A stretch of 58,464 bases of DNA from NCBI GenBank assembly GCA_018433595.1, contig JAHDQY010000042.1:1-58464 (forward strand), given 5' to 3'. A program made the position numbers and the translations under genes. Under the pieces are notes generated by a model that searched no databases, was not told the DNA's origin, and saw only the letters and a list, made by a program, of their open reading frames with translations. Below, piece after piece: positions 14,125 through 52,935 of the stretch (positions within the stretch are counted from its first letter, which is position 1; every line of letters starts with the position of its first letter). The DNA is from Synergistales bacterium (GTDB lineage: Bacteria; Synergistota; Synergistia; Synergistales; Aminithiophilaceae).

Positions 14125-15120
14125 ATGATGGAGCCTATTCGTCCGGAAATTCGGATTGAGGAGAGCACCCCCCGCTTCGGCAGGATCGTTGTCGAGCCCC
14201 TGGAAAGGGGCTTCGGCGTCACCTTGGGCAACGCCCTCAGGAGGGTCCTGCTGTCATCGGTGCGAGGTGCGGCCATCACGGCCGTCCGCGTCGAGGGAGT
14301 GCTTCACGAGTTCAGCACCATTCCCGGGATCCGGGAAGACGTGATCGAGCTCGTCTTGAACCTCAAACACGTTCCCGTTCGCTGCTATGTCGAGGAAGAG
14401 TTCCGTATCCTGCGTCTTGAGGCTCAGGGACCCGGCAAGGTGACGGCGGCACAAATTCAGCCGGATAGCGAAGTCGAGTTCGTCGATCCCGATGCTTACA
14501 TCTGCGAGCTCGAAGAAGGAGCCCATCTCGCCATGGACCTTTATGTGGCGCAGGGCGTCGGCTACACTCCCAGCGATGGACCCCGCCCGGCCTATCTGCC
14601 CTTGGATTCGCTTCCCATCGACGCTCTTTACTCGCCGGTGGAACGTGTCAAATATGACGTTCAGGCGGCTCGTGTCGGTCAGCGTACGGACTACGACAGC
14701 CTTGTCCTCCAGATCTGGACTAACGGCGTTGTCTCGCCGGAAGAGGCGGTGGCTGAGTCGTCGCAGATTCTGAAGGGTTATTTCTCTCAGATGGCCTGTG
14801 ATCTCGGCAGGACCGCTCCGGCCGAAACCGAGGAGGACAACGTTTCCGCCGAGGGAGAAGAAGCTGCCGGAACCTACGGTGAGGAAGACGTCTTTCTTGC
14901 CCGCCCTGTGCGTGACCTGGAGCTTTCGATCCGAAGCGAGAACTGCCTCCTTCGGGGCGGGATTCTCACCATCGGCGATCTTGTCGCCCGGAGCCGGGAG
15001 GACCTTCTGAAAATTCGCAACCTGGGCAAGATCTCCCTCCGTGAGATCGAAGAAAAACTTGAAAAGGCGGGTTTGAGTCTCATCTCCGCCGAAACGGAAA
15101 AGGAAACGAAGGAGGAATAA
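14125..15120 (+). CDS. rpoA: RNA polymerase subunit alpha
   Basis: The alpha subunit is 331 aa from the ATG at 14125. A second ATG directly follows at 14128, and the ribosome binding site AAAGGTGGGG fits either. The N-terminal dimerization domain has RIVVEPLERGFGVTLGNALRRVLLSS. A long acidic linker (about residues 232-255) leads to the C-terminal domain, which has LELSIRSENCLLRGGI and the helix-hairpin-helix LLKIRNLGKISLREI. This domain contacts UP elements and activators. Confidence 0.97.
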   Translation: MMEPIRPEIRIEESTPRFGRIVVEPLERGFGVTLGNALRRVLLSSVRGAAITAVRVEGVLHEFSTIPGIREDVIELVLNLKHVPVRCYVEEEFRILRLEAQGPGKVTAAQIQPDSEVEFVDPDAYICELEEGAHLAMDLYVAQGVGYTPSDGPRPAYLPLDSLPIDALYSPVERVKYDVQAARVGQRTDYDSLVLQIWTNGVVSPEEAVAESSQILKGYFSQMACDLGRTAPAETEEDNVSAEGEEAAGTYGEEDVFLARPVRDLELSIRSENCLLRGGILTIGDLVARSREDLLKIRNLGKISLREIEEKLEKAGLSLISAETEKETKEE

Positions 15121-50001: not shown

Positions 50002-51032
50002 GATCCTTTCTGGCACGGAAAAACATCGAGTTTTCCCTGAGGCGCTACGGCATCGAGGCTCTCGGTGCCATGGCGATGGGACTTTTCGCTTCGCTGATTG
50101 TCGGGTTGATCCTGAATGTCCTGGGAACGCGGCTGGGGCTGCCGCTGCTGGGCACGCTGGGAACGCGGGCCATGGCGATGGCGGGGCCCGCCATTGGCGT
50201 GGCGGTGGCCTACGGGCTCAAATCCCCGTCGCTGGTCCTTTTTGCCTCCACTGTGACGGGCATGGCCGGCTACGAGCTGGGCGGCCCGGCGGGCTGCTTC
50301 TTGGCGACCGTGATCGGAGCCGAGTTCGGCAAGGCCGTCTCGGGCGAGACGAAGGCTGACATCATCGTCACACCCGTCATGACCATCGCTGCCGGCGTCC
50401 TGGCCGGGATGGCCGCCGGTCCTGCCATCGGCGATTTCATGACCTGGATCGGCTCAGTGATCATGGCGGTGACGGAGATGCATCCGGTCCCGATGGGAGT
50501 TCTCATCTCCGTCATTGTCGGCATGGCGTTGACGGCGCCCATATCGAGTGCCGCCTTGTGCATCATGCTGGGCCTGGGCGGAACGGCGGCAGGGGCCGCC
50601 ACGGTGGGCTGTTCGGCCCAGATGATCGGATTTGCCGTGGCGAGCTACCGCGAGAACGGCTGGGGAGGGCTGGTCTCTCAGGGGCTGGGGACGTCGATGC
50701 TCCAGATCCCCAATATCGTCAGAAATCCGCTGATCTGGATTCCGCCCACCCTCGCCGGGGCCCTGTTGGGTCCTCTGGCGACGACGGTGCTGCGGATGGA
50801 GAACGTTCCCTCCGGCGCCGGCATGGGCACCAGCGGCCTCGTGGGGCAGTTCGGCACGATCGATGCCATGGGCGCCGGTCTCGACGTGCTGGCCAAGATT
50901 GTCCTCCTTCATTTTCTTCTGCCTGCCCTGGTGACACTTCTCATCTGTGAACCCATGCGCCGTCTGGGCTGGATCGGACCGGAAGACATGAAACTCCCCA
51001 CGCCGAAGCGGCCGGAGGAGGACGAGAGCTGA
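49998..51032 (+). CDS. PTS EIIC_2-like membrane protein
   Basis: The protein is 344 aa with about eight to ten membrane helices, glycine- and alanine-rich, with the conserved-looking GPAGCFLATVIGAEFGKAVSGETK and GMGTSGLVGQFGTIDAMGAG in part. It resembles the PTS_EIIC_2 group of orphan PTS IIC proteins. No EIIA, EIIB, HPr or enzyme I gene is nearby, so transport by phosphorylation cannot be assumed. The substrate is unknown. Confidence 0.75.
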   Translation: MRSFLARKNIEFSLRRYGIEALGAMAMGLFASLIVGLILNVLGTRLGLPLLGTLGTRAMAMAGPAIGVAVAYGLKSPSLVLFASTVTGMAGYELGGPAGCFLATVIGAEFGKAVSGETKADIIVTPVMTIAAGVLAGMAAGPAIGDFMTWIGSVIMAVTEMHPVPMGVLISVIVGMALTAPISSAALCIMLGLGGTAAGAATVGCSAQMIGFAVASYRENGWGGLVSQGLGTSMLQIPNIVRNPLIWIPPTLAGALLGPLATTVLRMENVPSGAGMGTSGLVGQFGTIDAMGAGLDVLAKIVLLHFLLPALVTLLICEPMRRLGWIGPEDMKLPTPKRPEEDES

Positions 51033-51054
51033 CTTGTGGGGTCTGCCTTCCGGC

Positions 51055-51327
51055 CTAGCCGCCTGCCAGAGGCGGGAAGAGGTCAACGGCGTCGCCGTCG
51101 CTGAGGGGCGTCTCCCGCCCGTTGAGGTGGGCGATGTGGCGGCCGTTGACGAGGACGATCACTCCCGGCAGGAGCCGGCCCTCGTCGTCGACGATCTGGT
51201 CGTCGAAGGCCTTGCCCCACCGTCGGGAGAGCTCATCCAGAAGGGCACCCGCCGTCGGCGGAGCCTCCATCTCCAGCTCCCTTGCTCCGGCCAGGTTTCT
51301 CAGCGCGGCGAAGAGGCGCAGCTTCAT
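51055..51327 (-). CDS. MoaD/ThiS family sulfur-carrier protein
   Basis: This 90-residue protein has the beta-grasp pattern of MoaD (MKLRLFAALRNLAGARELEM, then PGVIVLVNGRHIAHL, DGDAVDLFPPLAGG) and ends in the diagnostic GG, which is activated for sulfur transfer. It could serve molybdopterin, tungstopterin or another sulfur pathway. No moaE is adjacent. It overlaps the upstream DUF3343 gene by 4 bases on the same strand. Confidence 0.85.
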   Translation of the reverse strand: MKLRLFAALRNLAGARELEMEAPPTAGALLDELSRRWGKAFDDQIVDDEGRLLPGVIVLVNGRHIAHLNGRETPLSDGDAVDLFPPLAGG

Positions 51328-51554
51328 TTTTCCTCGTTTCCAAGGCGGTGGTATTCAAGGATGTCGATGTGATGTTCCTTGACGAGGTTGGTCACGCTCT
51401 CTTCTGCCTCGCAGGGATAACGGCAGGCCAGCCCGCAGGAGGCCGAAAGTTCCCGGGGGACGGGGACGATTTTCACGGCCAGTCCGGCCTGGCGGCAGAC
51501 TTTTTCGAAGCGCAGAGCCATATGGGTCGTATCGAAGGTGGCGAGGCATTCCAA
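51324..51554 (-). CDS. DUF3343 protein, putative Se/S carrier-like
   Basis: The protein is 76 aa from a TTG at 51554 that has GGGAGGG 7 bases upstream, giving the family-like start MECLATFDTTHMALRFEKV. A longer frame to 51605 would begin inside the promoter -10. The signature VPVPRELSASCGLACRYP contains the CGLA cysteine of DUF3343. Such proteins are proposed sulfur or selenium carriers. The overlap with moaD supports a joint role in sulfur transfer. Confidence 0.78.
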   Translation of the reverse strand: MECLATFDTTHMALRFEKVCRQAGLAVKIVPVPRELSASCGLACRYPCEAEESVTNLVKEHHIDILEYHRLGNEEK

Positions 51555-51604
51555 AGGGGTACCCTCCCTATAAAAGATCAGTTTGAGCTTTTTTGTTTTC
51601 AGCA

Positions 51605-51641
51605 ATTATACCTGTACGATGACAGGTGGTGCAGGTATAAT
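51605..51641. promoter_or_regulatory. Palindromic divergent promoter region
   Basis: ATTATACCTG (51605-51614) and CAGGTATAAT (51632-51641) are a perfect 10-bp inverted repeat 17 bases apart. Each arm holds a consensus -10 TATAAT, one for each strand. An inner repeat CCTGT/ACAGG lies at 51611-51615 and 51622-51626. The -35 positions are weak on both strands. It sits between the DUF3343-moaD pair and the ompH-like gene. Confidence 0.65.
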
Positions 51642-51678
51642 CGCCTAGCGAGGTCAGAAAACAGGAGGAGGTCGTTCC

Positions 51679-52122
51679 ATGGTGATTTTCAGGAGATCCG
51701 TTCTTGCCGTCGTGGCTTTTGCTTTCGTGCTTGCCCTCGGTGCCGGCGCTGCTCAGGCGGCGGAGAAAATCGGCATTATCGACATGCAGAAGGTGGTTTT
51801 CGGCCACCCCAAGTTCGAGGAGACGCAGAAGCAGATCGGCGCCACGCTGACGACAAAGCAGCAGGAGGCCAAGATGGCCATCGACGCCGAGAAGGATCAG
51901 GACAAGAAGGCCGAGATCTACCGTACCAAGCGGATGGAGATGGCCCAGGAGGAGAACCGCCTCATGGCGCCCATTCTCAAGGACGTCGACATGGCCATCC
52001 GCACCGTGGCCAAGGCCAAGAGTTTCACCGTTATCTTCGAGAAGAGCACCGTCATCTTCGGGGGCACGGAGATCACCCAGGATGTGATCACCGAGCTCAA
52101 GAAGATCGGGGCAGGCAGTTAG
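51679..52122 (+). CDS. OmpH/Skp family periplasmic chaperone
   Basis: The protein is 147 aa with a signal peptide (VLAVVAFAFVLALGAGAAQA, cleavage near residue 27), then the family start EKIGIIDMQKVVFGHPKF, a helical charged middle (about 55-110) and the end ITQDVITELKKI. Skp proteins guard outer-membrane proteins in the periplasm. The usual bamA and lpxD neighbours are absent. The ribosome binding site is GGAGGAGGT. Confidence 0.85.
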   Translation: MVIFRRSVLAVVAFAFVLALGAGAAQAAEKIGIIDMQKVVFGHPKFEETQKQIGATLTTKQQEAKMAIDAEKDQDKKAEIYRTKRMEMAQEENRLMAPILKDVDMAIRTVAKAKSFTVIFEKSTVIFGGTEITQDVITELKKIGAGS

Positions 52123-52142
52123 AGGCTTCTATCGTTCATTTG

Positions 52143-52175
52143 AAAAGGACCCCCGTCAAAGGGGGTCCTTTTTTT
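52143..52175. terminator. Terminator between ompH-like gene and livF
   Basis: AAAAGGACCCCC (52143-52154) pairs with GGGGGTCCTTTT (52161-52172) and is followed by more T. Because A-runs flank the other side, it can work for both converging units. Confidence 0.9.
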
Positions 52176-52197
52176 GTGGCTTTCTTCAGCGGCGGCC

Positions 52198-52935
52198 TCA
52201 GAGTTTCCGATGGCCGCCGCCGAGGTAGGCGGCTTCGATGTCGGGATCGCGGAGGAGATCCGCTGAAAGCCCCTCCTTGATAAGGTGACCCGTCTGAAGC
52301 ACGTAGGCCCTGTGGGAGAGAAGCAGTGCCTGCCGGGCGTTCTGCTCGACGAGGAGGATCGTCGTGCCCTGTTCGTTGATGAGCTTCAGCTCCCGGAAGA
52401 TCTCCTTGATGATGATCGGGGCGAGTCCAAGAGAGGGCTCGTCGAGGAGGAGGACCCGGGGCCGGGACATGAGGGCCCGTCCGATGGCGAGCATCTGCTG
52501 TTCGCCGCCGGAGAGAGTTCCGGCGTACTGCTCCCGGCGCTCCTCAAGGCGGGGGAAGAGGGTGAAGACCCGCTTCAGGTCATCGTCGATTCCGCTTCGG
52601 TCGTTCCTGGGGAAGGCACCCATCATGAGGTTTTCAAAGACCGTCAAGGGGGCGAAGACCTTCCGCCCTTCCGGGGCGAGAGAGAGTCCCTGGGTGACGA
52701 CCTGAAAGCTCTTTTTCGCCAGCACCTTGCCGTCGAGGAACACGTCGCCGCTCTCGCGGCGGACGTCGCCCATGACGGCGCTCATTAGCGTCGACTTGCC
52801 GGCGCCGTTGGCGCCGATGACGGAGACGATCTCGCCGGCGAAGACGTCGATGGAGACGTTCTGGACGGCCTTGATGGCGCCGTAGCTGACGCAGAGGTTG
52901 CGGACGGAGAGCAGGGGGGTTTGAGAATCGGTCAT
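52198..52935 (-). CDS. livF: Branched-chain amino-acid ABC transporter ATPase LivF
   Basis: LivF is 245 aa: Walker A GANGAGKST near residue 38, signature LSGGEQQML near 142 and Walker B VLLLDEPSLGLAP near 162, the usual LivF end. It is the second ATPase of the Liv system on the cytoplasmic face. It overlaps livG by 4 bases and is the last gene of this minus-strand operon. Confidence 0.93.
   Translation of the reverse strand: MTDSQTPLLSVRNLCVSYGAIKAVQNVSIDVFAGEIVSVIGANGAGKSTLMSAVMGDVRRESGDVFLDGKVLAKKSFQVVTQGLSLAPEGRKVFAPLTVFENLMMGAFPRNDRSGIDDDLKRVFTLFPRLEERREQYAGTLSGGEQQMLAIGRALMSRPRVLLLDEPSLGLAPIIIKEIFRELKLINEQGTTILLVEQNARQALLLSHRAYVLQTGHLIKEGLSADLLRDPDIEAAYLGGGHRKL

Follow-up and report, generated by a model that had tools for sequence, protein, structure and literature searches.

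The palindrome at positions 51,605–51,641 of the window (the whole stretch of 58,464 nt that was analysed) very probably marks two overlapping, back-to-back promoters of the housekeeping sigma factor, one serving a leftward DUF3343-moaD pair and the other a rightward ompH-like gene; these promoters would be mutually exclusive, and no dedicated regulator would be needed. The geometry of the site is conserved in the order, and the minus-strand TATAAT is associated with the presence of a near divergent gene. The arrangement is of an ordinary kind, with unusually clean comparative support.

Architecture of the probable divergent promoter region

Pfam matches identify the flanking genes as they were given in the preliminary description, namely Se_S_carrier (DUF3343) and ThiS/MoaD genes leftward and an OmpH gene rightward (Table 1). 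DUF3343 has been proposed to act in Se or S trafficking (accessible part of PMC5322559). The DUF3343 gene probably starts at the TTG at 51,554, behind AGGGAGGG, rather than at the TTG at 51,605 of the ORF list, because its relatives begin at the equivalent residue (the ribosome-binding site and start were compared with those of relatives by eye); the listed TTG falls inside the minus-strand -10 box.

The inverted repeat is exact, as had been claimed: ATTATACCTG (51,605–51,614) and CAGGTATAAT (51,632–51,641) form perfect 10-bp arms around a 17-bp loop, with an inner pair of CCTGT (51,611–51,615) and ACAGG (51,622–51,626). It is the sole match within the window at three or fewer mismatches (0/100 shuffles yield any), and a genome-wide search for the exact pattern returned one site in 2.53 Mb. 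The pattern ATTATA-N15-35-TATAAT has two sites in the genome versus none in the reversed control, the second lying within a 660-aa open frame. In each arm, the outermost 6 bp correspond to a -10 box, TATAAT on the minus strand for DUF3343(-moaD) and TATAAT on the plus strand for the ompH-like gene, and the two boxes are 25 bp apart, without overlap. The perfect palindrome appears to arise because both -10 boxes are consensus in this genus, together with a 4-bp CCTG/CAGG match that looks like chance. The site shows that a conspicuous inverted repeat between divergent genes can amount to the sum of two -10 boxes.

Two housekeeping-sigma promoters would therefore stand back to back, with almost complete overlap in 37 bp, such that the putative DUF3343-moaD -10 lies directly upstream of the predicted ompH -35, and the predicted ompH -10 lies just past the hexamer proposed as the minus-strand -35. 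Sigma region 2 would melt each TATAAT for its own gene, with predicted start sites ~49 bp apart. Both promoters would need the same roughly 60–80 bp of DNA for the polymerase footprint; because the footprints overlap, one bound polymerase would shut out the other, and the two genes would be coupled by steric competition.

Table 1. Features of the divergent promoter region, in window coordinates (near, far and none are the locus classes defined in the next section).
Feature	Position	Strand	Remarks
MoaD/ThiS-like gene	51055..51327	-	Pfam PF02597, 60 bits; 4-nt overlap with DUF3343 stop
DUF3343 (Se_S_carrier) gene	51324..51554	-	Pfam PF11823, 88 bits, residues 19-86 of listed ORF
DUF3343-moaD predicted transcript start, A	51599	-	Same position in 16/16 near genera, one representative each
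AT block GCAATTATAC (GYA-W4-TAC)	51602..51611	+	Just upstream of ompH -35; includes minus -10
DUF3343-moaD putative -10 TATAAT, outer left arm	51605..51610	-	40/40 near, 0/8 far, 7/53 none
ompH predicted -35 TGTACG	51613..51618	+	Same place relative to -10 across the 101-locus comparison
DUF3343-moaD candidate weak -35 TGCACC	51628..51633	-	17-bp spacer; position only
ompH predicted -10 TATAAT, outer right arm	51636..51641	+	TANAAT in 91/101 loci; TATAAT in 7/101, 4 from this genus
ompH predicted transcript start, A or G	51647..51648	+	6-7 nt past -10; placed by spacing
OmpH/Skp-like gene	51679..52122	+	Pfam PF03938; the genome's only PF03938 match

Conservation of the two probable promoters in the order

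Hits to ompH were found in 171 of the 180 genomes of the order, and hits to DUF3343 in 123. One ompH locus from each of 102 genomes was compared, of which 101 were scorable (10 families, 43 genera); G137 fell below the promoter-score cut. Because loci were taken mainly down the ompH hit list, genus g16 of family f5 is thinly sampled. Five loci without a blast hit to the query, one of insufficient length, a repeated G161 entry, L029 (which is a second ompH copy in G176), and L003 and L004, named duplicates of G003 and G001, were dropped before counting. The comparison covers one ompH copy per genome. G134 was scored as lacking the pair via one ompH copy, although the shared-promoter pattern is present at its DUF3343 on a different contig; G096 and G154 fall outside the 101 loci, though both keep ATTATA at ompH. 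Loci were classed as near where a divergent DUF3343 or MoaD hit lies no more than 194 bp from the start of ompH, as far where a divergent hit lies at 197 bp or more (8 loci), and as none where neither occurs within 450 bp (53 loci), the 194/197 bp cut being set after the data were seen. The window genus is represented by four genomes, including that of the window, with G001 and G002 identical at the site; two relatives are public under a name, Synergistota bacterium L-13 and a Synergistaceae MAG.

For the plus promoter, each locus was assigned its highest-scoring hexamer pair, under a score that prefers TNGAC/TANAAT and biases toward that form; on this basis TNGAC occurs in 87/101 loci, TANAAT in 91/101, both in 83/101, and both at 17 bp in 73/101. 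The -35 is TGGAC or TAGAC in 85/101 loci (commonest hexamers TGGACT, 35; TGGACG, 19; TGGACA, 12; TAGACG, 9; TAGACT, 8), and the commonest -10 hexamers are TAAAAT (39), TAGAAT (25), TACAAT (20), and TATAAT (7). This gives a usable picture of the housekeeping promoter for the order, TNGAC-17-TANAAT. A literature search (Synergistota, transcription start site, promoter) found no mapped transcript starts for the order.

Among the 101 loci, TGTACG is restricted to the window genus and invariably accompanied by TATAAT; in all four genomes, TGTACG and the two TATAATs occupy matching positions. The three congeners have CGGGTATAAT as their right arm and a different loop, in which ACAGG is lost; the 17-bp spacers differ among the three distinct versions in the genus, with both TATAATs kept. 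The -35 positions had been described as poor on both sides, and this holds in the window: the hexamers at 17 bp, TGTACG (plus strand) and TGCACC (minus strand, 51,633–51,628), each match TTGACA at 3/6 positions, and a sigma-70 scan at 9/12 returned no promoter in 51,000–52,300. An activator or a repressor handling both promoters had been suggested on this ground, but a poor plus -35 need not imply an activator: relatives mostly have TGGAC or TAGAC there, and what this genus offers in its place is a -10 at consensus. The consensus -10 may offset the weaker plus -35, in which case no activator would be required.

On the minus strand, TATAAT abuts or nearly abuts the plus -35, and its presence is strongly associated with near loci against the rest (Table 1; Fisher p ~3e-21 over the 101 loci, uncorrected for relatedness). 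The 40 near loci that carry it span 16 genera and 6 families. The contrast recurs within family f8 (16/16 near, 0/6 far, 7/17 none), and within genus g42, where the near species has ATTATA and the species without the gene has TTTATA. In three far loci (G118, G119, and G158) a TATAAT lies 57–59 nt from the DUF3343 start and 80–99 bp from the ompH -35; the median distance from TATAAT to the DUF3343 start in near loci is 42 nt (40 values, including outliers of -15, 315, and 1123). In 5/8 far loci, TATAAT is not among the three best DUF3343 candidates. The best candidate minus -10 of two far loci, G128 and G129 (L077, L075; TATATT and CATAAT), is degenerate and still beside the ompH -35. Seven genomes of genera g40 and g41 retain the minus TATAAT without a DUF3343 or MoaD hit within 450 bp; in the four g41 loci the longest upstream frame is co-directional with ompH, and in G145 (g40) another gene is divergent.

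With one representative per near genus, the mean top-base frequency is 1.00 for ATTATA, 0.85 for the -35, 0.92 for the -10, 0.51 for the spacer, and 0.48 upstream (-35, -10, and spacer from the 14/16 genera with a 17-bp spacer). An invariant position six bases beyond ATTATA coincides with the predicted minus-strand A start, a position also kept in 8/10 anchored genera without the pair. For 36 distinct minus promoters, the best -35 score at 16–18 bp averages 3.56 versus 2.47 in shuffled sequence (0/500 reach it), a difference that relatedness inflates. Of 20 regions upstream of DUF3343 that were sampled away from the ompH loci, one contains GTATAATT, at a contig end and with the shared-promoter pattern, and six contain plain TATAAT. 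Taken together, the near/far/none contrast, its recurrence in f8, the TATAATs of far loci, and the invariance of ATTATA make it most likely that the minus TATAAT is the -10 of the divergent gene.

The identity of that gene bears on the suggestion that a sulfur-carrier pair is linked to an envelope chaperone. DUF3343 hits within 450 bp upstream of ompH occur in six families (f1, f2, f3, f4, f8, and f10), and MoaD hits only in f1, f3, and f9; the DUF3343 part of the suggestion thus recurs, and the MoaD part was too wide. The recurrent partner of ompH is DUF3343. Conserved adjacency of DUF3343 and ompH does not by itself prove a functional link to the OmpH-like protein.

Alternative readings of the palindrome and the AT-rich block

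The preliminary description had treated the inner CCTGT/ACAGG repeat of the palindrome as a possible operator, had suggested an activator or a repressor acting on both promoters at once, and had proposed aligning relatives and searching the genome for further sites. The palindrome is indeed perfect in the window, but its arms match at 10/10 positions only there, at 9/10 in the three congeners, and at 5–8/10 in the other 36 near loci; the alignment thus keeps both TATAATs in 4/4 genomes of the genus and loses the palindrome as such. The CCTGT/ACAGG pair is missing in all three congeners and in every other of the 101 loci, ACAGG alone occurring in the plus spacer of 10/40 near loci. The exact palindrome is confined to one genome site, and searches of the genome with the exact palindrome, its half, ATTATA/TATAAT pairs, and a 15-mer with three mismatches revealed no regulon. 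With the palindrome neither conserved in relatives nor repeated elsewhere in the genome, we regard a shared operator of one regulator as extremely improbable. The same applies to CodY, which in Synergistetes is reported to recognise AT-rich arms separated by a spacer of variable length (accessible part of PMC9318921), a layout that the site shares: the CodY box AATTTTCWGAAAATT has no match near the site at three or fewer mismatches, its sole window match is at 15,001 (36/100 shuffles carry at least one), and the extended arms in that part of the source are unlike ATTATA/TATAAT by eye, so that a CodY-type operator is scarcely credible. These comparisons give no support to an operator or to a dual regulator. 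Support is good for the reading as divergent -10 elements: both TATAATs are kept in all four genomes of the genus, and the minus box goes with a divergent gene that is present and close by.

Several further observations were made during these searches. Beyond the site, the own-genome motif searches found, by eye, a TATAAT upstream of a response-regulator-like gene, and GYAATTATAC occurs at two other sites of the congener G001, where visual inspection suggests the -10 of a promoter ahead of a gene. Five sites in the window genome (G000: C15:62520, C29:164, C29:7871, C58:1173, and C58:149797) carry CATTATCCCTGTCCG, which resembles a repeat family. In four g3 genomes (L218, L219; G013:C1:727377, G014:C17:4384), TATGTAAATTTACATA is a perfect palindrome, located between divergent open frames in both loci read; it could be a candidate operator. 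RNA-family searches of 51,200–52,200 gave four matches, none close to its gathering score. In our opinion, the per-genus CodY motifs of Synergistetes, with spacers of 12–21 bp in the accessible part of PMC9318921, may partly be -35/-10 boxes rather than a single operator.

The AT block that contains the minus -10 extends beyond it. GYA-W4-TAC is present in 40/40 near loci, 0/8 far loci, and 21/53 loci without a divergent gene (9 genera). A promoter-wide pattern including the block gives 48 matches in 47/180 genomes, where its reversed control gives one. Coordinates or blast place 44 of these matches at an ompH hit, which is more in keeping with an element specific to ompH than with a general feature of strong promoters; the others are at the DUF3343 of G134, at a site common to G032 and G035, and at one site in G068. 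The site in G032 and G035 (L190, L191; g14) is promoter-like, with GCATAAATAC, TTTGACC, and TATAAT upstream of an unidentified gene. Since the block persists without the pair, and the minus-start position is kept there too, it probably also has some role for ompH.

What that role might be was considered in two forms. The block may be an UP-like element of the ompH promoter, bound by alpha-CTD beside the -35 and doubling as the DUF3343 -10 where that gene is adjacent. Such a division of labour accords with W4, which is fixed as ATTA in 40/40 near loci and varies in the 21 no-pair loci (ATTA 7, AATT 4, TTTT 3, AATA 3, ATAA 2, ATTT 1, and TTTA 1), but the pattern is almost confined to ompH rather than spread across other promoters, and to our knowledge the GYA and TAC ends are atypical of UP elements. 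We consider an UP-like element possible, if on the unlikely side; it is compatible with, not opposed to, the two-promoter explanation. Less credible, and in our view quite improbable, is that the block, centred at ~-41.5 of ompH, is an operator for a transcription factor, possibly a 6-4-6 palindrome TANGTA-W4-TACNTA, that controls ompH and perhaps DUF3343. The excess of the promoter-wide pattern over its control and its concentration at ompH would fit a bound factor, as would a looser form of the block in 27/44 better-scored no-pair loci (10 genera), counted under a stricter score threshold (40 near, 8 far, and 44 none) and with an anchor that presets most block positions; the looser block is missing in the remaining 17/44. 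A T three bases before the block, which is unanchored, is kept in 8/10 no-pair genera and 16/16 near genera. Across the order, TANGTA-W4-TACNTR has a match in 97/180 genomes and exceeds the reversed control in several (for example G092, 8/5 versus 0/0, and G129, 6/7 versus 1/0). Against this, none of the four window-genus genomes contains the palindrome pattern, the 15-mer with three mismatches gives 6/6 versus 9/6 in the control, and no coherent regulon was seen among the sites inspected. By their flanks, fetched sites are often dispersed repeats as judged by eye, and others are scattered; among 20 stretches fetched from the matches listed, a set that leaves outside the multi-copy sites of G114, G129, and G138, repeat-like flanks were seen in 5/5 of G085, 3/5 of G092, 1/1 of G094, 2/3 of G095, and both of G054.

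The f5 genomes G085, G092, G094, and G095 contain dispersed repeats with TACGTAAAAATACCTA / TAGGTATTTTTACGTA or close variants (L243-L250, L253, L255, and L256), in several copies per genome with flanks alike by eye.

A dual use of GYA-W4-TAC, as an ompH-specific control element (UP-like or factor-bound) that is tuned to ATTA as the opposite -10 beside DUF3343, is a tentative proposal that we judge unlikely. If true, expression of a Se/S carrier and of an outer-membrane chaperone would be in hard-wired competition across much of the order.

Comparison with known promoter arrangements

Overlapping, back-to-back divergent sigma-70 promoters are a known general class. The site shares with this class two outward-facing genes and, as predicted, overlapping polymerase footprints; it differs in that neither gene is known to encode a regulator, in showing no sign of an operator or of looping, and in that a single order retains the near-gene layout across 16 genera and 6 families. 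Outward-facing -10 boxes are conserved for the divergent genes in 4/4 genomes of the genus and 40/40 near loci; a -35 at 16–18 bp is clear on the plus strand in relatives (TNGAC as counted above), reduced to 3/6 in the window, and weak on the minus strand. With a minus -10 that goes with the neighbour across 16 genera, the two overlapping promoters may provide an unusually well-conserved natural case in which to ask if selection favours steric competition between polymerases as a means of coupling genes.

The bidirectional promoters of Warman and Grainger resemble the site in their -10 symmetry and in polymerase binding in one orientation at a time (accessible part of PMC12825309). They have shared or overlapping -10 elements, with starts 7–25 bp apart (accessible part of PMC10268837), whereas here two separate -10 boxes lie 25 bp apart without overlap. 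Because the predicted starts are ~49 bp apart, the site is better described as an overlapping divergent pair than as a bidirectional promoter in that sense. In E. coli, the five bidirectional promoters tested were too weak basally for competition, which emerged once one direction was substantially activated (accessible part of PMC12825309). The CodY motifs described for Synergistetes have AT-rich inverted arms in common with the site, and come from the same phylum; they differ in arm sequence as given in the accessible part of the source (PMC9318921), the outer arms here being -10 hexamers.
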